DNA from: a virus
Direction: 5' to 3' (one strand)
IMG/VR virus record: IMGVR_UViG_3300029989_001703
Location: 1 to 24,473 of that record
Length of the DNA: 24,473 bases
This document shows positions 2,724-10,770 of the stretch, piece by piece. The translations under genes and the position numbers were made by a program. The notes beneath the pieces are model-generated. The model was not told where the DNA came from. It worked only from the letters and a program-made list of their open reading frames with translations, and did not search any database. Within the stretch, counting starts at the first letter, position 1. Every line of letters begins with the position of its first letter.

Positions 2724-2777
2724 TGGTCTGCCCGGAGGGGATCGAACCCCCGACCCACGGCTTAGAAGGCCGTTGCT
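2724..2777 (-). tRNA. tRNA-Arg (TCT), 3' fragment at the prophage junction
   Basis: On the minus strand this reads as anticodon stem ACGGC, loop CTTCTAA with anticodon TCT, stem GCCGT, variable loop GGGTC, T stem GGGGG, loop TTCGATC, stem CCCTC, acceptor strand CGGGCAG, discriminator A and an encoded CCA. The D arm and the 5' acceptor strand (expected to end in CTGCCCG) are absent. Upstream of the AGCA just before the anticodon stem the DNA becomes AT-rich and no longer fits a tRNA. It is therefore a fragment, as left by integration of a phage into the tRNA 3' half. Confidence 0.85.
2724..2777. other. Prophage attachment junction (att core)
   Basis: The 3' part of tRNA-Arg(TCT), about 54 bp including CCA, is the probable crossover segment. 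Host genes lie to the left and phage late genes to the right. Tyrosine-recombinase phages often carry a copy of the tRNA 3' end, so the same block should recur at the other prophage end beside a complete tRNA-Arg. That end is outside the window. Whether to call this attL or attR depends on the integrase orientation, which cannot be seen. Confidence 0.75.
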
Positions 2778-2788
2778 GCAATAGAAAA

Positions 2789-5915: not shown

Positions 5916-6974
5916 TTAGGCGTAGGTGAAATGGCCGACCACATCACCGGCGGCAACCGCCGTCGCATCGAGGTCGGCATTGGCGGCGGTGATCGCGTAC
6001 GCGATCCCGGTGGTGAACGGCATGCCGAAATCGTCGCCGCCCATAAGCAGCGCCGTCGTCGGCGGAATTGCGAGCGTGAACACGGGCGTGTCGGCGCCCG
6101 GGCTGGGTGCCGTGGCTTTGTTGAAGAACGCCACGTACTTGATTGATGCGGTCGTGTTTGTGAGCACGCCGCGCAGAATTCGGCCGGCGCTTGCCTTCAC
6201 CGACGTCGCGTTGGTACTTGCTGCGCTGCGCACCTTTGCGATTGAAACGTTTGCAATCGTGCCCGCGCGCACCTGCATGCCAACGTCGCCGATCAGCGCA
6301 GTGCCAGCGCTAAGCGCCGGCGCCGGAGCGAGTTGCATCGGGCGAGCGGACAGCGTGCCAACAACAGTCGTCGTCCCAGACGTGTACGCGCTGACCCGTG
6401 CGCGAAAATAGCGGGCGGTGCGGGGAAACACCATCAGCCCGGTGGTGCTGCTCGACGAGAGTTGCACTGCATTGCCGACACCGTTGCCAAGCGCCGGCCA
6501 CCAGGTAGCTTGGCTGTCGCTGACCTCGTAAGTGATGGTTGCCGACCCGATGGCGGTGGTCTCGACGCTGATCGACATTGAGCCGAGCATGTCGACGCTG
6601 AACAGCACAGCCTGCGTTGTCGACGTCCCGCTGACCGATGCGCCATCGAGAAGCGCTACCGGCACACGCGCAGCGTCGGCCGTCGCCGTGCTGCTGAACA
6701 ATGCGGTGATGATGCTCGACAGCCGCTGCGCGATTCGCTGGAGCCGGCCGTTGAGGCCGGCGCTTGCTGTGTCGGTCGCGGGCGCGGCCTCGTTGACCGC
6801 GCCCAGCAGCACGGCTTGCGCCAGCTGGTTCGCCGCGCTCGCATCGCCACCACCGCCTGAGCCACCGCTGCCGGGGTTGGCCACGTAGACGACCGGCGCG
6901 AACGTGCCGTCGCCCAGGTCTTTCATCACCGTCGTGCACCGGCCGTGCACGCCCGTGATTTGTACATCTGCCAT
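5916..6974 (-). CDS. Predicted phage virion structural protein, Ser/Thr/Ala-rich
   Basis: This 352-residue protein starts with a short beta segment (VQITGVHGRCTTVMKDLGDG), then a Gly/Ser linker (about 34-44), a helical stretch, and several hundred residues of beta-rich, Ser/Thr/Ala-rich sequence. The C-terminal third (LTNTTASIKYVAFFNKATAP... then FTTGIAYAITAANADLD) resembles a domain common in phage virion and receptor-proximal proteins. A strong AGGAG site precedes ATG 6974. It lies downstream of the tail fibre and separated from it by a perfect palindrome. A tail-associated or decoration role fits; the exact position in the virion cannot be told. Confidence 0.65.
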   Translation of the reverse strand: MADVQITGVHGRCTTVMKDLGDGTFAPVVYVANPGSGGSGGGGDASAANQLAQAVLLGAVNEAAPATDTASAGLNGRLQRIAQRLSSIITALFSSTATADAARVPVALLDGASVSGTSTTQAVLFSVDMLGSMSISVETTAIGSATITYEVSDSQATWWPALGNGVGNAVQLSSSSTTGLMVFPRTARYFRARVSAYTSGTTTVVGTLSARPMQLAPAPALSAGTALIGDVGMQVRAGTIANVSIAKVRSAASTNATSVKASAGRILRGVLTNTTASIKYVAFFNKATAPSPGADTPVFTLAIPPTTALLMGGDDFGMPFTTGIAYAITAANADLDATAVAAGDVVGHFTYA

Positions 6975-7043: not shown

Positions 7044-7751
7044 TTAGACTTTGCCGCGCACCGTGATGCAGGCCCGGGTCTGCGTGGTGTTGCTGCCGCC
7101 GCCCATTGCTTGTCGCATCACTGTGACCGAGTTGAGCGCAGTGCGCCCCGTCGATGCACTGACGACTTCCTGAAAGATCGCGTCGGTCGTGCCGCTGGCG
7201 TTGTCGATCTGAGTGGTGACCTGCACGCGCATCGTGCTGGCGTCGCTGTAGGCGATCGGCAGCGCGACGGTCTGCGAGGTTTCGCTCGTGCTCCAGGTCG
7301 AGTACACCGTCTGCTCGACGATGCCGTTGGGGAAGTACTGCACCTGTGCCGATGCGGCGAAGTCGTCGGCCTTGGCGTAGTACGCGCCGTGTTGGCCATC
7401 GAGCATGTCCGCATCGAACGCACACCCTGCACCGTCCACCAGCAGCAACTGGGCGAGCATGTGGGCGCCGTCGAACATCGCCATCGGCACGTAGTTGTCG
7501 AGCGTCACGAGATGCGCGTAGCGCGCGTCGAGCGCGGCCAGCAGCTGCGCGTCGTTGGACTTGGCCGGGGTGATGCCAGCAGCAGCAAGCACGGCCAGCA
7601 GCTCGGCTTGCAGCATGTTGAAAAAGTTCGCGACGAGGATCGTGCGCGGCGTGTTCGTGGCTGCGTCGCCGTCCGTGAACCAGCCTCCGGTGCCCGCCGT
7701 GCCGACAGCCGGCCGCGTGGCCACCGCCGTTGTGTGGTCGTATTTGTACAT
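7044..7751 (-). CDS. Tail fibre protein
   Basis: This 235-residue protein has an N-terminal attachment-like region (MYKYDHTTAVATRP..., about 1-85) that mentions GGWFTDGD and FFNMLQAELLAVLAAAGI, followed by the phage-fibre motif DADMLDGQHGAYYAKADDF at about 125-145. The C-terminal part is a beta-rich domain ending in ITVRGKV. The LDGQHGAYY motif is typical of tail-fibre shaft repeats. I set the start at ATG 7751: the frame is open for 88 more codons, but that part is the shadow of the gp48-like gene. It follows the gp48 gene with a 13-bp gap, the usual place for Mu-like fibre genes. It probably binds the host surface. Confidence 0.8.
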   Translation of the reverse strand: MYKYDHTTAVATRPAVGTAGTGGWFTDGDAATNTPRTILVANFFNMLQAELLAVLAAAGITPAKSNDAQLLAALDARYAHLVTLDNYVPMAMFDGAHMLAQLLLVDGAGCAFDADMLDGQHGAYYAKADDFAASAQVQYFPNGIVEQTVYSTWSTSETSQTVALPIAYSDASTMRVQVTTQIDNASGTTDAIFQEVVSASTGRTALNSVTVMRQAMGGGSNTTQTRACITVRGKV

Positions 7752-7764
7752 TCCGAATGCCTGT

Positions 7765-9294
7765 TTAAGAGAAGAGCAGATAGGTATGCGCCGGCTTGAG
7801 CCGCAGCAGCAGCGCCCGCAGGCTGTTGGGCAGGGTGACGGTGCTGCTGACGACCCACGTGGCGTCCCACTCGATGTCGCCCAGCGCGTCGCCGCAGCCG
7901 TCGAGGCCGACGCGAAACGGGTGGCACTCGGTGATCGTGATGGTGTAGCCAGCCGCCGCCGCGACAGTGGTGAAGTAGCCAATCGACTGGCCGCCGCGTG
8001 CAGCGAACGCGGCAACTACAGCAGCCCGGCGCTGCGCCAGCGTTGCTCCGGCATCGGGCGCCTGGCCGACGAGCAACTCGTAGTCGGTAATGAGGGCCGT
8101 CGTCGTCACCGGGCAGCAGTCGAGCAGCAACTGATCGGCAGACGCCTGCACGCGCGCCAGCTCGATCGAGGCGCCGTCGAGCAGCGGTTCATCGTCGAGC
8201 CAGGCGGGGCCGCGCGGCATGAGCAGTTGCAGTGCGGTCGCGTAGGAATTCTCTGCATCGGTCACTGTTACCAGCAGCTGATCGGTCGCGGCCGATAGCG
8301 CACTGCTGCCGCCGCCGCTGCTGGCGTCGATCGTGCCTCCCGCCGCACCCGCGCTTTGGTCCCAGGCACGCCACGTTGCAGTCATTTGCGCGACGCCGGC
8401 AGCCGGCGTGTAGCGCAACACGTCGGCAGGCCGCAGCAGCAATGCCGCAGCAGCAGTCACCGCGCCGACGCTTGCCCACGTCGCGCCGGCGTTGATCGAG
8501 TAGTCCCAGCCCGCGCCGGTCGTCGCAGTCAGCGCAATGCCGAGCGGGTCGCCTTCGGCGTCGGTCGCGCCGGCGAGCAGCGCGGACACGCGCACAGTCG
8601 CCGACGCGCCAACATCGATCGACAACGTCGGCGAGCTGGCGACCAACACCGGCACGGTGTTGAACGGCGCGGTCGGCACAGCGTTGATTGCACGGTCGCC
8701 GCGCGTAAATCGCAGCTCGTCGAGCCAGCCCAGGTAATAGTTCGCGCCCTCTTGAGTTTGGCCAACGTTCATATGTTGCGACGTCAGCGCGGTGCCCGTG
8801 CGTGTCGCAGCCGTCGCGCCGACATTGCCGTTGACAGAGACAGTGAGGGTGCCCGACGCCGTGCAGCGAGCGGCAACAAATGCCCACTGCCCTACCTGCA
8901 CGACACCGGTTGCAGTCGTTGCATCGGCGGAGGTTTCTGCCCAGCATCGCAACTGCCCTGCCGCATTCACCCAAAACAAAATTCCGTAGCGATACACGCT
9001 CGACCGCGTGTCGAGCAATACGTGATACGTCGCCGTCAATGCCGATGGCCGAATCCACCCTTCAATGGTCCACGCACCCGACGGCGCGAAATCCGCGCTG
9101 TCCGGCGCAGTCAGATAGCCTCCGGAAAACAGCAGGCTGGCACTGCCCCAGCGCGATTGCGCAGTGTCGATCTCGACCGCGCCGGTGGCTGTGACCGCGC
9201 GCCGCGCGGGCGACGAGTCAACGATGACACGGCTGCCGTCGCTGCCTTCGGCATGCAGCAGCAACGACACCGAGGAAAACAGACTGTCGGTCAT
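7765..9294 (-). CDS. LamG / adhesin-repeat / YmfQ (Mu gp48-like) fusion baseplate protein
   Basis: This 509-residue protein joins three parts. Residues about 1-210 are a LamG/concanavalin-like domain (WTIEGWIRPS, QWAFVAARC, GWLDELRFTRGDR). Residues about 215-340 match a repeat known from large bacterial adhesins (TDAEGDPLGIALT, YSINAGATWASVG, LRYTP, WRAWDQSAGAAGGT). Residues about 344-509 are a YmfQ/DUF2313 domain, the Mu gp48 baseplate protein (ALQLLMPRGPAW, ECHPFRVG, LRALLLRLKPAHTY). Free-standing gp48 proteins are about 190 residues. A GGAG site precedes ATG 9294, 2 bp after the gp47 stop; an earlier TTG at 9306 is less likely. A GTG at 8265 could give a lone YmfQ form. The added domains suggest glycan or surface binding at the baseplate rim. 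Confidence 0.85.
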   Translation of the reverse strand: MTDSLFSSVSLLLHAEGSDGSRVIVDSSPARRAVTATGAVEIDTAQSRWGSASLLFSGGYLTAPDSADFAPSGAWTIEGWIRPSALTATYHVLLDTRSSVYRYGILFWVNAAGQLRCWAETSADATTATGVVQVGQWAFVAARCTASGTLTVSVNGNVGATAATRTGTALTSQHMNVGQTQEGANYYLGWLDELRFTRGDRAINAVPTAPFNTVPVLVASSPTLSIDVGASATVRVSALLAGATDAEGDPLGIALTATTGAGWDYSINAGATWASVGAVTAAAALLLRPADVLRYTPAAGVAQMTATWRAWDQSAGAAGGTIDASSGGGSSALSAATDQLLVTVTDAENSYATALQLLMPRGPAWLDDEPLLDGASIELARVQASADQLLLDCCPVTTTALITDYELLVGQAPDAGATLAQRRAAVVAAFAARGGQSIGYFTTVAAAAGYTITITECHPFRVGLDGCGDALGDIEWDATWVVSSTVTLPNSLRALLLRLKPAHTYLLFS

Positions 9295-9296
9295 CG

Positions 9297-10334
9297 TCAG
9301 CTCCAAGTGATCGAGCCGGGCAGCGCGATCTCGCCCGCCGCGTACACGATGTTGGCCGCCGGCACTACCAGCGTGAAGTGCTCGACGCCAGCTGCGCCAG
9401 CGATCGCTTCATCGAGCCGCGACAGCCAGAGCGTGCCGCCCGGTTCCGCCTCGCGCCGCACGAAGTCGGCCACCTCGGCAACCACGGCCGCGCGCGTTGC
9501 GGTGGTGTCAGGCACCAGGCCGCTGATGGTGATGGCCAGCGGCACGCCGATCGGCGCCAATGCGGTGATGCGGGCGCATACGGGCTTGCGCACCGGGTCG
9601 GTCAGATACGCCTGCACGGCCGTGACGAGTGCACCGCTCGGGATGCTGTCGCCAGCCATCACGCGCACGTAAACATCCGGCGGGGCCGCTGCCACCCAGG
9701 CGCGCGTGACGCCAGCGACTTCCAGCGCCCACTCCACATAGTCGGCTTCCGCCCCGCCCTGCGGTGGCAGCTGTATGCGCGCCTTGATGCGCGCAAACAG
9801 CGCCGCGTCGGACTCGACATCACCGCCGCCGGTCAACGCGCCGGCAACGCCGACGGACTGCACGCCCGACACCGGAGACACCAGAGTCAAGGTCTGCCCG
9901 GCCTCGCGATTGCCGGCTGCGCCCGCGTCGTTGGCCGTGACGGTCACATCAAGCGTGGCGCCGGTGGCGGTGCCGCCGGTGGTGACGGTGTAGAGCGTGC
10001 CGTCGAGCGCGCGCAGAACGGCAGTCGTGCCGACGACTGCGCCGGCGGCAGTCGTGAGCGTCACGGTGCCGACCGCCTTCGACGCCGCCTTGCGCGGGAT
10101 GCTGAGCCAGATGCTGGCCCAACGGTCGAGCACGGCGTCCTCGGCAGTGTCTGGCAGCGCCTGGTCAGCGACCCATGCCTGATGGGCGTACAGGCTGTGC
10201 ACGCTGTAGGCCAGCACGCGGCCGTAGACCGGCGCATCGGCGCGCCGCAGCGCATCGGTGATGCCGAGGCGCCCGAGCAGGTCGGAGACGATACGGCCGA
10301 TCAGCGTCGGCAAGGTTGGGCGGTCAAACGGCAT
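9297..10334 (-). CDS. Baseplate J-like protein (Mu gp47-like)
   Basis: This 345-residue wedge protein joins the baseplate periphery to the hub in contractile tails. The N-terminus (MPFDRPTLPTLIGRIVSDL) and the sequence DALRRADAPVYGRVLAYSVHSLYAH are typical of the Mu gp47/P2 gpJ family, as are DRWASIWLS-IPRKAASKAVGTV (about 80-100) and the C-terminal region with RLDEAIAGAAGVEHFTLVVPAANI. A central beta-rich domain (about 105-185) is present. The start is ATG 10334, which overlaps the gp46 gene by 11 bp; the open frame further upstream is a shadow. It is followed directly by the gp48-like gene. Confidence 0.93.
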   Translation of the reverse strand: MPFDRPTLPTLIGRIVSDLLGRLGITDALRRADAPVYGRVLAYSVHSLYAHQAWVADQALPDTAEDAVLDRWASIWLSIPRKAASKAVGTVTLTTAAGAVVGTTAVLRALDGTLYTVTTGGTATGATLDVTVTANDAGAAGNREAGQTLTLVSPVSGVQSVGVAGALTGGGDVESDAALFARIKARIQLPPQGGAEADYVEWALEVAGVTRAWVAAAPPDVYVRVMAGDSIPSGALVTAVQAYLTDPVRKPVCARITALAPIGVPLAITISGLVPDTTATRAAVVAEVADFVRREAEPGGTLWLSRLDEAIAGAAGVEHFTLVVPAANIVYAAGEIALPGSITWS

Positions 10335-10770
10335 TGAGTTTCTCCCATGCGTCGGCGTAGCGCAGGTCGATCTTGCCGCCGGTGGTGCGGGTGAGGTGGA
10401 TGGTGAGGTCGAGGCGCTGCTGACCATTGCGCACGGCGGTGGCGTCAACCGCGGCGACGACGCCGTCGTCGACCATCCACGTGAGGGCCTCGATCGCATA
10501 GACCCGGGCGTCGTTCAGCGTGGCCGTCGTGAGCGTGCTGCGCGCCAACAGCCAGAGGCGCGATCCGATTCGGTCGCCCGGCACGTCGGGATAGCTGTCG
10601 CCCCACCAGCCCATGCGCTCGTCACCGGGCAGCAGATCGTCAGGCTCGGCGCGGCGCCATGTAAACAGGCTGATGACGACAGCACGAGCCAGGGCAGCAT
10701 CGGGATGCATGCCGAGGTCGAGCGTGCTGCCGGCGACGGTGATCGTGGCAGGCGATGCGGTGTAGAGCAT
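10324..10770 (-). CDS. Phage GP46-like baseplate protein
   Basis: This 148-residue protein carries the marks of the Mu GP46 family: WWGDSYPD, then GDRIGSRLWLLARSTLTTATL, then ALTWMVDDGVV and a C-terminal DLRYADAWEKL. Mu gp46 is equivalent to the P2 gpW/T4 gp25 class of sheath-initiator or wedge proteins that link baseplate and sheath. The order gp45-gp46-gp47-gp48 is kept exactly as in Mu. Its gene follows a hairpin and overlaps the baseplate J start by 11 bp. Confidence 0.92.
   Translation of the reverse strand: MLYTASPATITVAGSTLDLGMHPDAALARAVVISLFTWRRAEPDDLLPGDERMGWWGDSYPDVPGDRIGSRLWLLARSTLTTATLNDARVYAIEALTWMVDDGVVAAVDATAVRNGQQRLDLTIHLTRTTGGKIDLRYADAWEKLNAV

Follow-up and report, generated by a model that had tools for sequence, protein, structure and literature searches.

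A Mu gp48-type baseplate wedge protein with an N-terminal lectin and adhesin-repeat extension shared by two prophages

Does a single open frame, located where a Mu-type phage keeps the gene of its baseplate wedge protein gp48, encode a wedge protein with a host-binding type arm of its own, and would such an arm stand beside the tail fibre or in its place? The window, i.e. the whole stretch of DNA analysed here, is the 24,473-base virus record IMGVR_UViG_3300029989_001703 (positions 1-24,473). Its minus strand harbors the structural half of a contractile-tailed prophage, with portal, protease and capsid region (identified from translations) at the right side. Left of the capsid region follow, in this order, the sheath (phrog_165), tape measure, gp44, gp45, gp46, gp47, the fusion gene, a fibre and a GH19-type endolysin, and Pfam and PHROGs matches depict the Mu-type order gp45-gp46-gp47-gp48-fibre. 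The genes next to the fusion gene are:

10324-10770, minus strand: gp46 (BW1), Pfam GP46 with E=1.2e-35
9297-10334, minus strand: gp47 (BW2, baseplate J), Pfam Baseplate_J with E=2.4e-56, 59% identical to the Derxia protein described below
7044-7751, minus strand: short tail fibre of 235 aa with an N-terminal anchor domain of Mu gp49 type (phrog_1833 tail fiber, 5e-14; anchor profile, 1.6e-20; alignment to the Mu gp49 N-terminus)

Between the fibre and the lysis genes a 352-aa protein is encoded (5916-6974, minus strand), for which neither Pfam nor PHROG gives a match. The left window end carries genes for a bacterial esterase, as read from the translation, and an AraC regulator. Between the AraC gene and the prophage lies a sub-threshold tRNA match (2727-2788, minus strand; 23.7 bits versus a gathering threshold of 29), possibly a truncated tRNA at the attachment site; no tRNA is predicted by ARAGORN.

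The fusion gene, its ribosome-binding site and its three parts are:

7765-9294, minus strand: lectin-adhesin repeat-gp48/BW3 fusion gene, 509 aa, ATG start (uninterrupted frame; Pfam; PHROGs)
9301-9304, minus strand: Shine-Dalgarno GGAG of the fusion gene (anti-SD duplex of -6.9 kcal/mol, about equal to that of gp47; the GGAGCTGA context is also present in Derxia, L010)
8671-9294, minus strand: LamG/concanavalin A-like domain, residues 1-208 (Pfam, phage LamG profile, PDB profile matches, AlphaFold 2 and Foldseek)
8266-8670, minus strand: Ig/cadherin-like adhesin repeat unit, residues 209-343 (40-46% identical to tandem repeats of about 147 aa in chromosomal frames)
7765-8265, minus strand: Mu gp48/YmfQ baseplate wedge protein 3 (BW3) domain, residues 344-509 plus stop (PF10076, phrog_203, alignment to free YmfQ)

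No stop interrupts the 509 codons, and the ATG at 9294 is located two bases past the gp47 stop. The Pfam scores of the lectin and gp48 parts each amount to about twice the curated cutoff. As had been proposed, the fusion would place a surface-binding type module on the wedge. Pfam, profiles, AlphaFold and Foldseek agree on the lectin fold. The original prediction that LamG, adhesin repeat and YmfQ share one open frame holds, and its domain borders were correct to within about 10 residues. NCBIfam yields no match, and an AlphaFold model of the full protein calculated without an alignment reaches a pLDDT of 31.

The same architecture, for which a search had been suggested, is found at the same site in a second bacterium. 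Neither the full protein, scanned against the viral and genome collections, nor gp47, scanned against the viral collection, retrieved a close relative; a scan of genomes and viruses with an alignment of gp46 led to a prophage of Derxia gummosa DSM 723 (L010). There, directly after gp47, a 537-residue protein is encoded by an open frame (L010:9479-11092) in the order lectin-repeat-gp48, and start and Shine-Dalgarno sequence beside gp47 are retained in both phages. The two fusions are 39% identical over 537 aligned columns (BLAST). Identity decreases from 59% in the neighbouring gp47 and 60% in the gp48 part to 46% in the repeat and 28% in the lectin; divergence thus rises toward the tip of the arm, a pattern that a receptor-facing part would show. 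Both fusions group in one clade of a tree built from 77 gp48 domains, with a support of 100/100 and a long stem of 0.81. On present evidence this indicates a single origin, which preceded the divergence of the two phages. The sequences are best explained by one addition of the arm at the gp47/gp48 junction in the common ancestor of the window phage and the Derxia prophage. Lysis genes seem to follow directly after the fibre in the Derxia prophage, unlike in the window with its intervening 352-aa protein.

This second protein bears on two trivial explanations. The window corresponds to one virus-collection record, and unrelated genes might have been united by assembly or sequencing; because the three-part protein occurs at the same place in the Derxia gummosa genome, and additionally in an IMG/VR record of that prophage (L240, L261 and L437, which are not independent, as judged from comparison of L240 with L010), the probability of such an artefact is practically negligible. 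The fusion might also sit in a decaying prophage and lack a function in the virion. The window does resemble a prophage fragment next to the bacterial esterase and AraC genes, and the phage is known here from sequence alone. Against this stand the 509 open codons, adjacent tail genes that match their families near full length, and the open homologue in another bacterium, which render decay very unlikely.

The LamG fold predicted for residues 1-210 is found by both family and structure comparison. Residues 58-196 match Pfam Laminin_G_3 (PF13385; E=1.1e-16, 61.8 bits versus a cutoff of 27.6). Related LamG domains were collected from 79 IMG/VR loci, and a phage LamG profile scores 173 bits on the window lectin, which is itself a row of this profile. 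The Derxia lectin is not detected by Pfam Laminin_G_3 and reaches 34.6 bits with the phage LamG profile. Solved LamG-type structures retrieved with a profile of seven phage LamG domains are an S-layer domain protein (4qvs), an arabinanase (5hon) and pappalysin. In the AlphaFold model of the arm (residues 1-345; 43 rows, i.e. the arm and 42 relatives), residues 10-200 adopt a LamG jelly roll with a pLDDT of about 90. Among the Foldseek matches of this model are phage LamG proteins, the best with E 3e-17, and a GH43 arabinanase, whose ConA-like domain gives a TM of 0.68 by target; the matching solved structures are carbohydrate- or receptor-binding ConA-like domains. LamG domains can have non-carbohydrate ligands as well; the fold suggests that the lectin part of the fusion may bind a glycan. 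Clostridial neurotoxin binding domains, which head the Foldseek list of PDB entries, share only the common ConA-like jelly roll at 10-14% identity and hence carry no information on toxicity. An alignment that combined LamG with YmfQ sequences was set aside, its summary indicating that unrelated domains had apparently been superposed.

The middle part had been taken for a repeat of the kind found in giant adhesins, and its homologues agree with this. Residues 205-350 share 40-46% identity with repeats in Burkholderiales chromosomal frames of about 1,000-5,500 aa, where units of about 147 aa are arranged in tandem, and the chromosome of Derxia gummosa itself also encodes repeats homologous to this unit. 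A frame of 4,542 residues (L438) contains 29 matches to the repeat profile, about 18 of them strong, at a spacing of about 147 residues. This frame and L439 exemplify giant repeat proteins encoded on Burkholderiales chromosomes and composed of the unit also present in the phage arm; they are a candidate source of the captured repeat, and their architecture suggests that they are adhesins. In the viral collection a scan for the repeat has the Derxia prophage as its sole match. Pfam Cadherin_4/5 and Big_9 remain below their cutoffs on the middle part (E 0.01-0.09; 16.3, 15.4 and 14.1 bits), the repeat profile finds no convincing match in the PDB, and AlphaFold models the repeat poorly (pLDDT 33-60).

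The C-terminal part is a complete gp48. Residues 354-508 match Phage_Mu_Gp48 (PF10076; E=2.2e-22, 79.9 bits versus a cutoff of 37.4) over model positions 2-147 of 150, and residues 347-508 match PHROG 203, 'baseplate wedge subunit' (E=1.3e-38). At the border to the repeat, the original prediction had pointed out a possible internal start:

8263-8265, minus strand: GTG codon at the ancestral YmfQ start position, probably unused (alignment to free YmfQ; anti-SD pairing)

In an alignment this GTG coincides exactly with the first codon of free YmfQ and therefore marks the ancestral start. The alignment would also suit a gene with two products, the long fusion and a free YmfQ, mixed in one baseplate. 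However, anti-SD pairing upstream of the GTG amounts to -2.9 kcal/mol compared with -6.9 kcal/mol at ATG 9294, and at the domain border of the Derxia homologue no start preceded by a good ribosome-binding site is conserved. A second product from this codon, which is sufficiently explained as a remnant, is consequently highly improbable, and this part of the prediction is not upheld.

Whether the arm adds to the fibre or replaces it can be judged from the fibre-docking loop of gp48. In the cryo-EM structure of Mu, fibre gp49 sits on a gp48 loop formed by residues 133-155 (PMC11915804). The corresponding region of the fusion is reduced to a short segment:

7825-7839, minus strand: VTLPN, what is left of the segment that aligns with the Mu fibre-docking loop 133-155 (alignment of 231 YmfQ domains and Mu gp48)

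Both fusions retain 5 loop residues versus 23 in Mu, and 209 of the 232 sequences (231 distinct YmfQ domains and Mu gp48) possess at least 19. The sister of the fusion clade consists of four free YmfQs of about 200 aa, which keep the docking loop and are followed by a gp49-type fibre. Furthermore, the fibres downstream of the fusions are short, with 235 aa in the window and 223 aa in Derxia compared with a median of 302 aa. From these features one could conclude that the docking loop was lost as the arm was gained, and that the arm replaces the docked fibre as main receptor-binding device.

A shortened loop of 3-12 residues is observed in 23 of the 231 distinct YmfQ domains, 2 of them being the fusions, and in several lineages. 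The others are L097, L098, L100, L102, L103, L106, L108, L110, L111, L113, L117, L118, L120, L124 and L109, as well as L316, L318, L288, L329, L202 and L039. As these 21 further sequences have a short loop and no fusion, the loop does not define the gp48 family, and their occurrence in several lineages speaks against a coupling of loop loss to the arm. A gp49-type anchor domain is encoded just behind gp48 in 21 of the 23 short-loop loci and in 194 of the 203 full-loop loci (Fisher p=0.31), including both fusion phages (window E=1.6e-20; Derxia), and the separate tail fibre gene that had been predicted for the window is one of these. The fibre lengths fall into the lower quarter of 198 fibres but are still within range. 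Since the anchor is equally common with short and full loops, the sequences indicate that the lectin arm is most likely an addition beside the docked fibre, and replacement of the fibre is unlikely. We thus regard the gene as probably encoding a BW3 with a covalent N-terminal adsorption arm, extra to the gp49-type fibre.

In such an adsorption arm one adhesin-type Ig/cadherin repeat would act as the spacer and the LamG domain as the tip. The N-terminal region of Mu BW3 is a three-helix bundle embedded between gp43 domains (PMC11915804), so the 340-residue N-terminal arm, if the protein is incorporated into the virion, must exit there. If each wedge contains one BW3, as in Mu, where the protein would form a heterotrimer with two gp47, a baseplate should bear six arms. 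Alongside the docked gp49-type fibre they would contact surface polysaccharide, and these contacts could pull the baseplate down or add avidity ahead of sheath contraction. The modules probably originate from a giant-adhesin repeat of the host and a phage LamG module.

Comparison of 231 distinct YmfQ domains, together with just under 2,000 genome searches, yields two phages with this exact architecture, and no record of the annotated phage collection spans 80% of the fusion. No third N-terminal fusion was found by family searches in 399 genomes from the order of Derxia, 385 from the class of Azospirillum and 369 from the class of Derxia, or by searches with a fusion profile in three samples at family level (74, 201 and 161 genomes); given the limits of sampling and of a first look, more may exist. 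Long frames upstream of YmfQ, for instance in L324, L325 and L209, were rejected as fusions; they seem to arise where GC-rich DNA leaves a wrong frame open across gp47.

All other additions to YmfQ seen here lie behind the core. They comprise a C-terminal LamG domain (L326, G669; Pfam 4.9e-7), a C-terminal F5/8 type C domain in Azospirillum soli (L016; 1.7e-6), a tail of 650 residues that matches Ig families weakly (L306) and about 310 residues of propeller-like repeats, as judged from sequence (L348/L350, G1085). Binding-type domains thus appear to have been added to the BW3 platform repeatedly. A more far-reaching and rather doubtful proposal is that BW3 serves as a general landing site for covalent adsorption arms, acquired independently at either end. 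The host-adhesin-derived N-terminal arm would here grow from the helical bundle of the wedge, and lectin binding could pull on this bundle and trigger contraction apart from the fibre.

A core and otherwise conserved wedge protein of the Mu/SfV tail type can carry its own host-binding type arm, with a spacer homologous to bacterial adhesin repeats. Host-range predictors restricted to fibres and spikes would overlook an arm on the wedge. Together with their several C-terminal counterparts, the two prophages with N-terminal arms provide a natural series for the number of binding devices on a simple baseplate and for the triggering of contraction at the wedge.

In comparison with Mu gp48 and SfV-type YmfQ, the fusions have the place after gp46-gp47, the aligned domain start, the family-invariant residues and the C-terminal PAHT motif in common. 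YmfQ is, as originally stated, normally a separate protein, with free members of about 180-200 aa in named phages, whereas the window protein carries the N-terminal lectin-repeat extension of 340 residues and has a docking-loop region of 5 residues. The Derxia fusion agrees with it in part order, site, short docking loop and downstream fibre anchor and deviates most in the lectin. The giant repeat proteins of Burkholderiales contain tandem arrays in frames of thousands of residues that are unlinked to phage tails, while the fusion contains one unit.

A binding domain on BW3 is already known from another system. Gp119 of Bacillus phage Vp4 is a BW3 with two carbohydrate-binding modules that are absent from its homologues, and it binds B. 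cereus cells by experiment (PMC11406892). Like the fusion, it combines a BW3 core with polysaccharide-binding type domains in a single chain. In Gp119, however, the core is N-terminal and modules of CBM fold lie behind it, whereas in the fusion LamG is positioned in front and linked by an adhesin repeat; furthermore, Vp4 belongs to the Herelleviridae with Gram-positive hosts, and the fusion to a Mu/SfV-type tail. New is therefore the N-terminal LamG and adhesin repeat on a tail of this type. In T4-like cyanophages giant LamG proteins occupy the slot after the gp47 homologue, as the fusion does, but are far larger. In S-CAM8 (54684-73187; L357:2685-21188) a 6,167-aa protein with LamG domains and a YHYH domain follows directly behind gp6; its match to baseplate wedge family PF23786 is sub-threshold, and it may represent an oversized equivalent of BW3.
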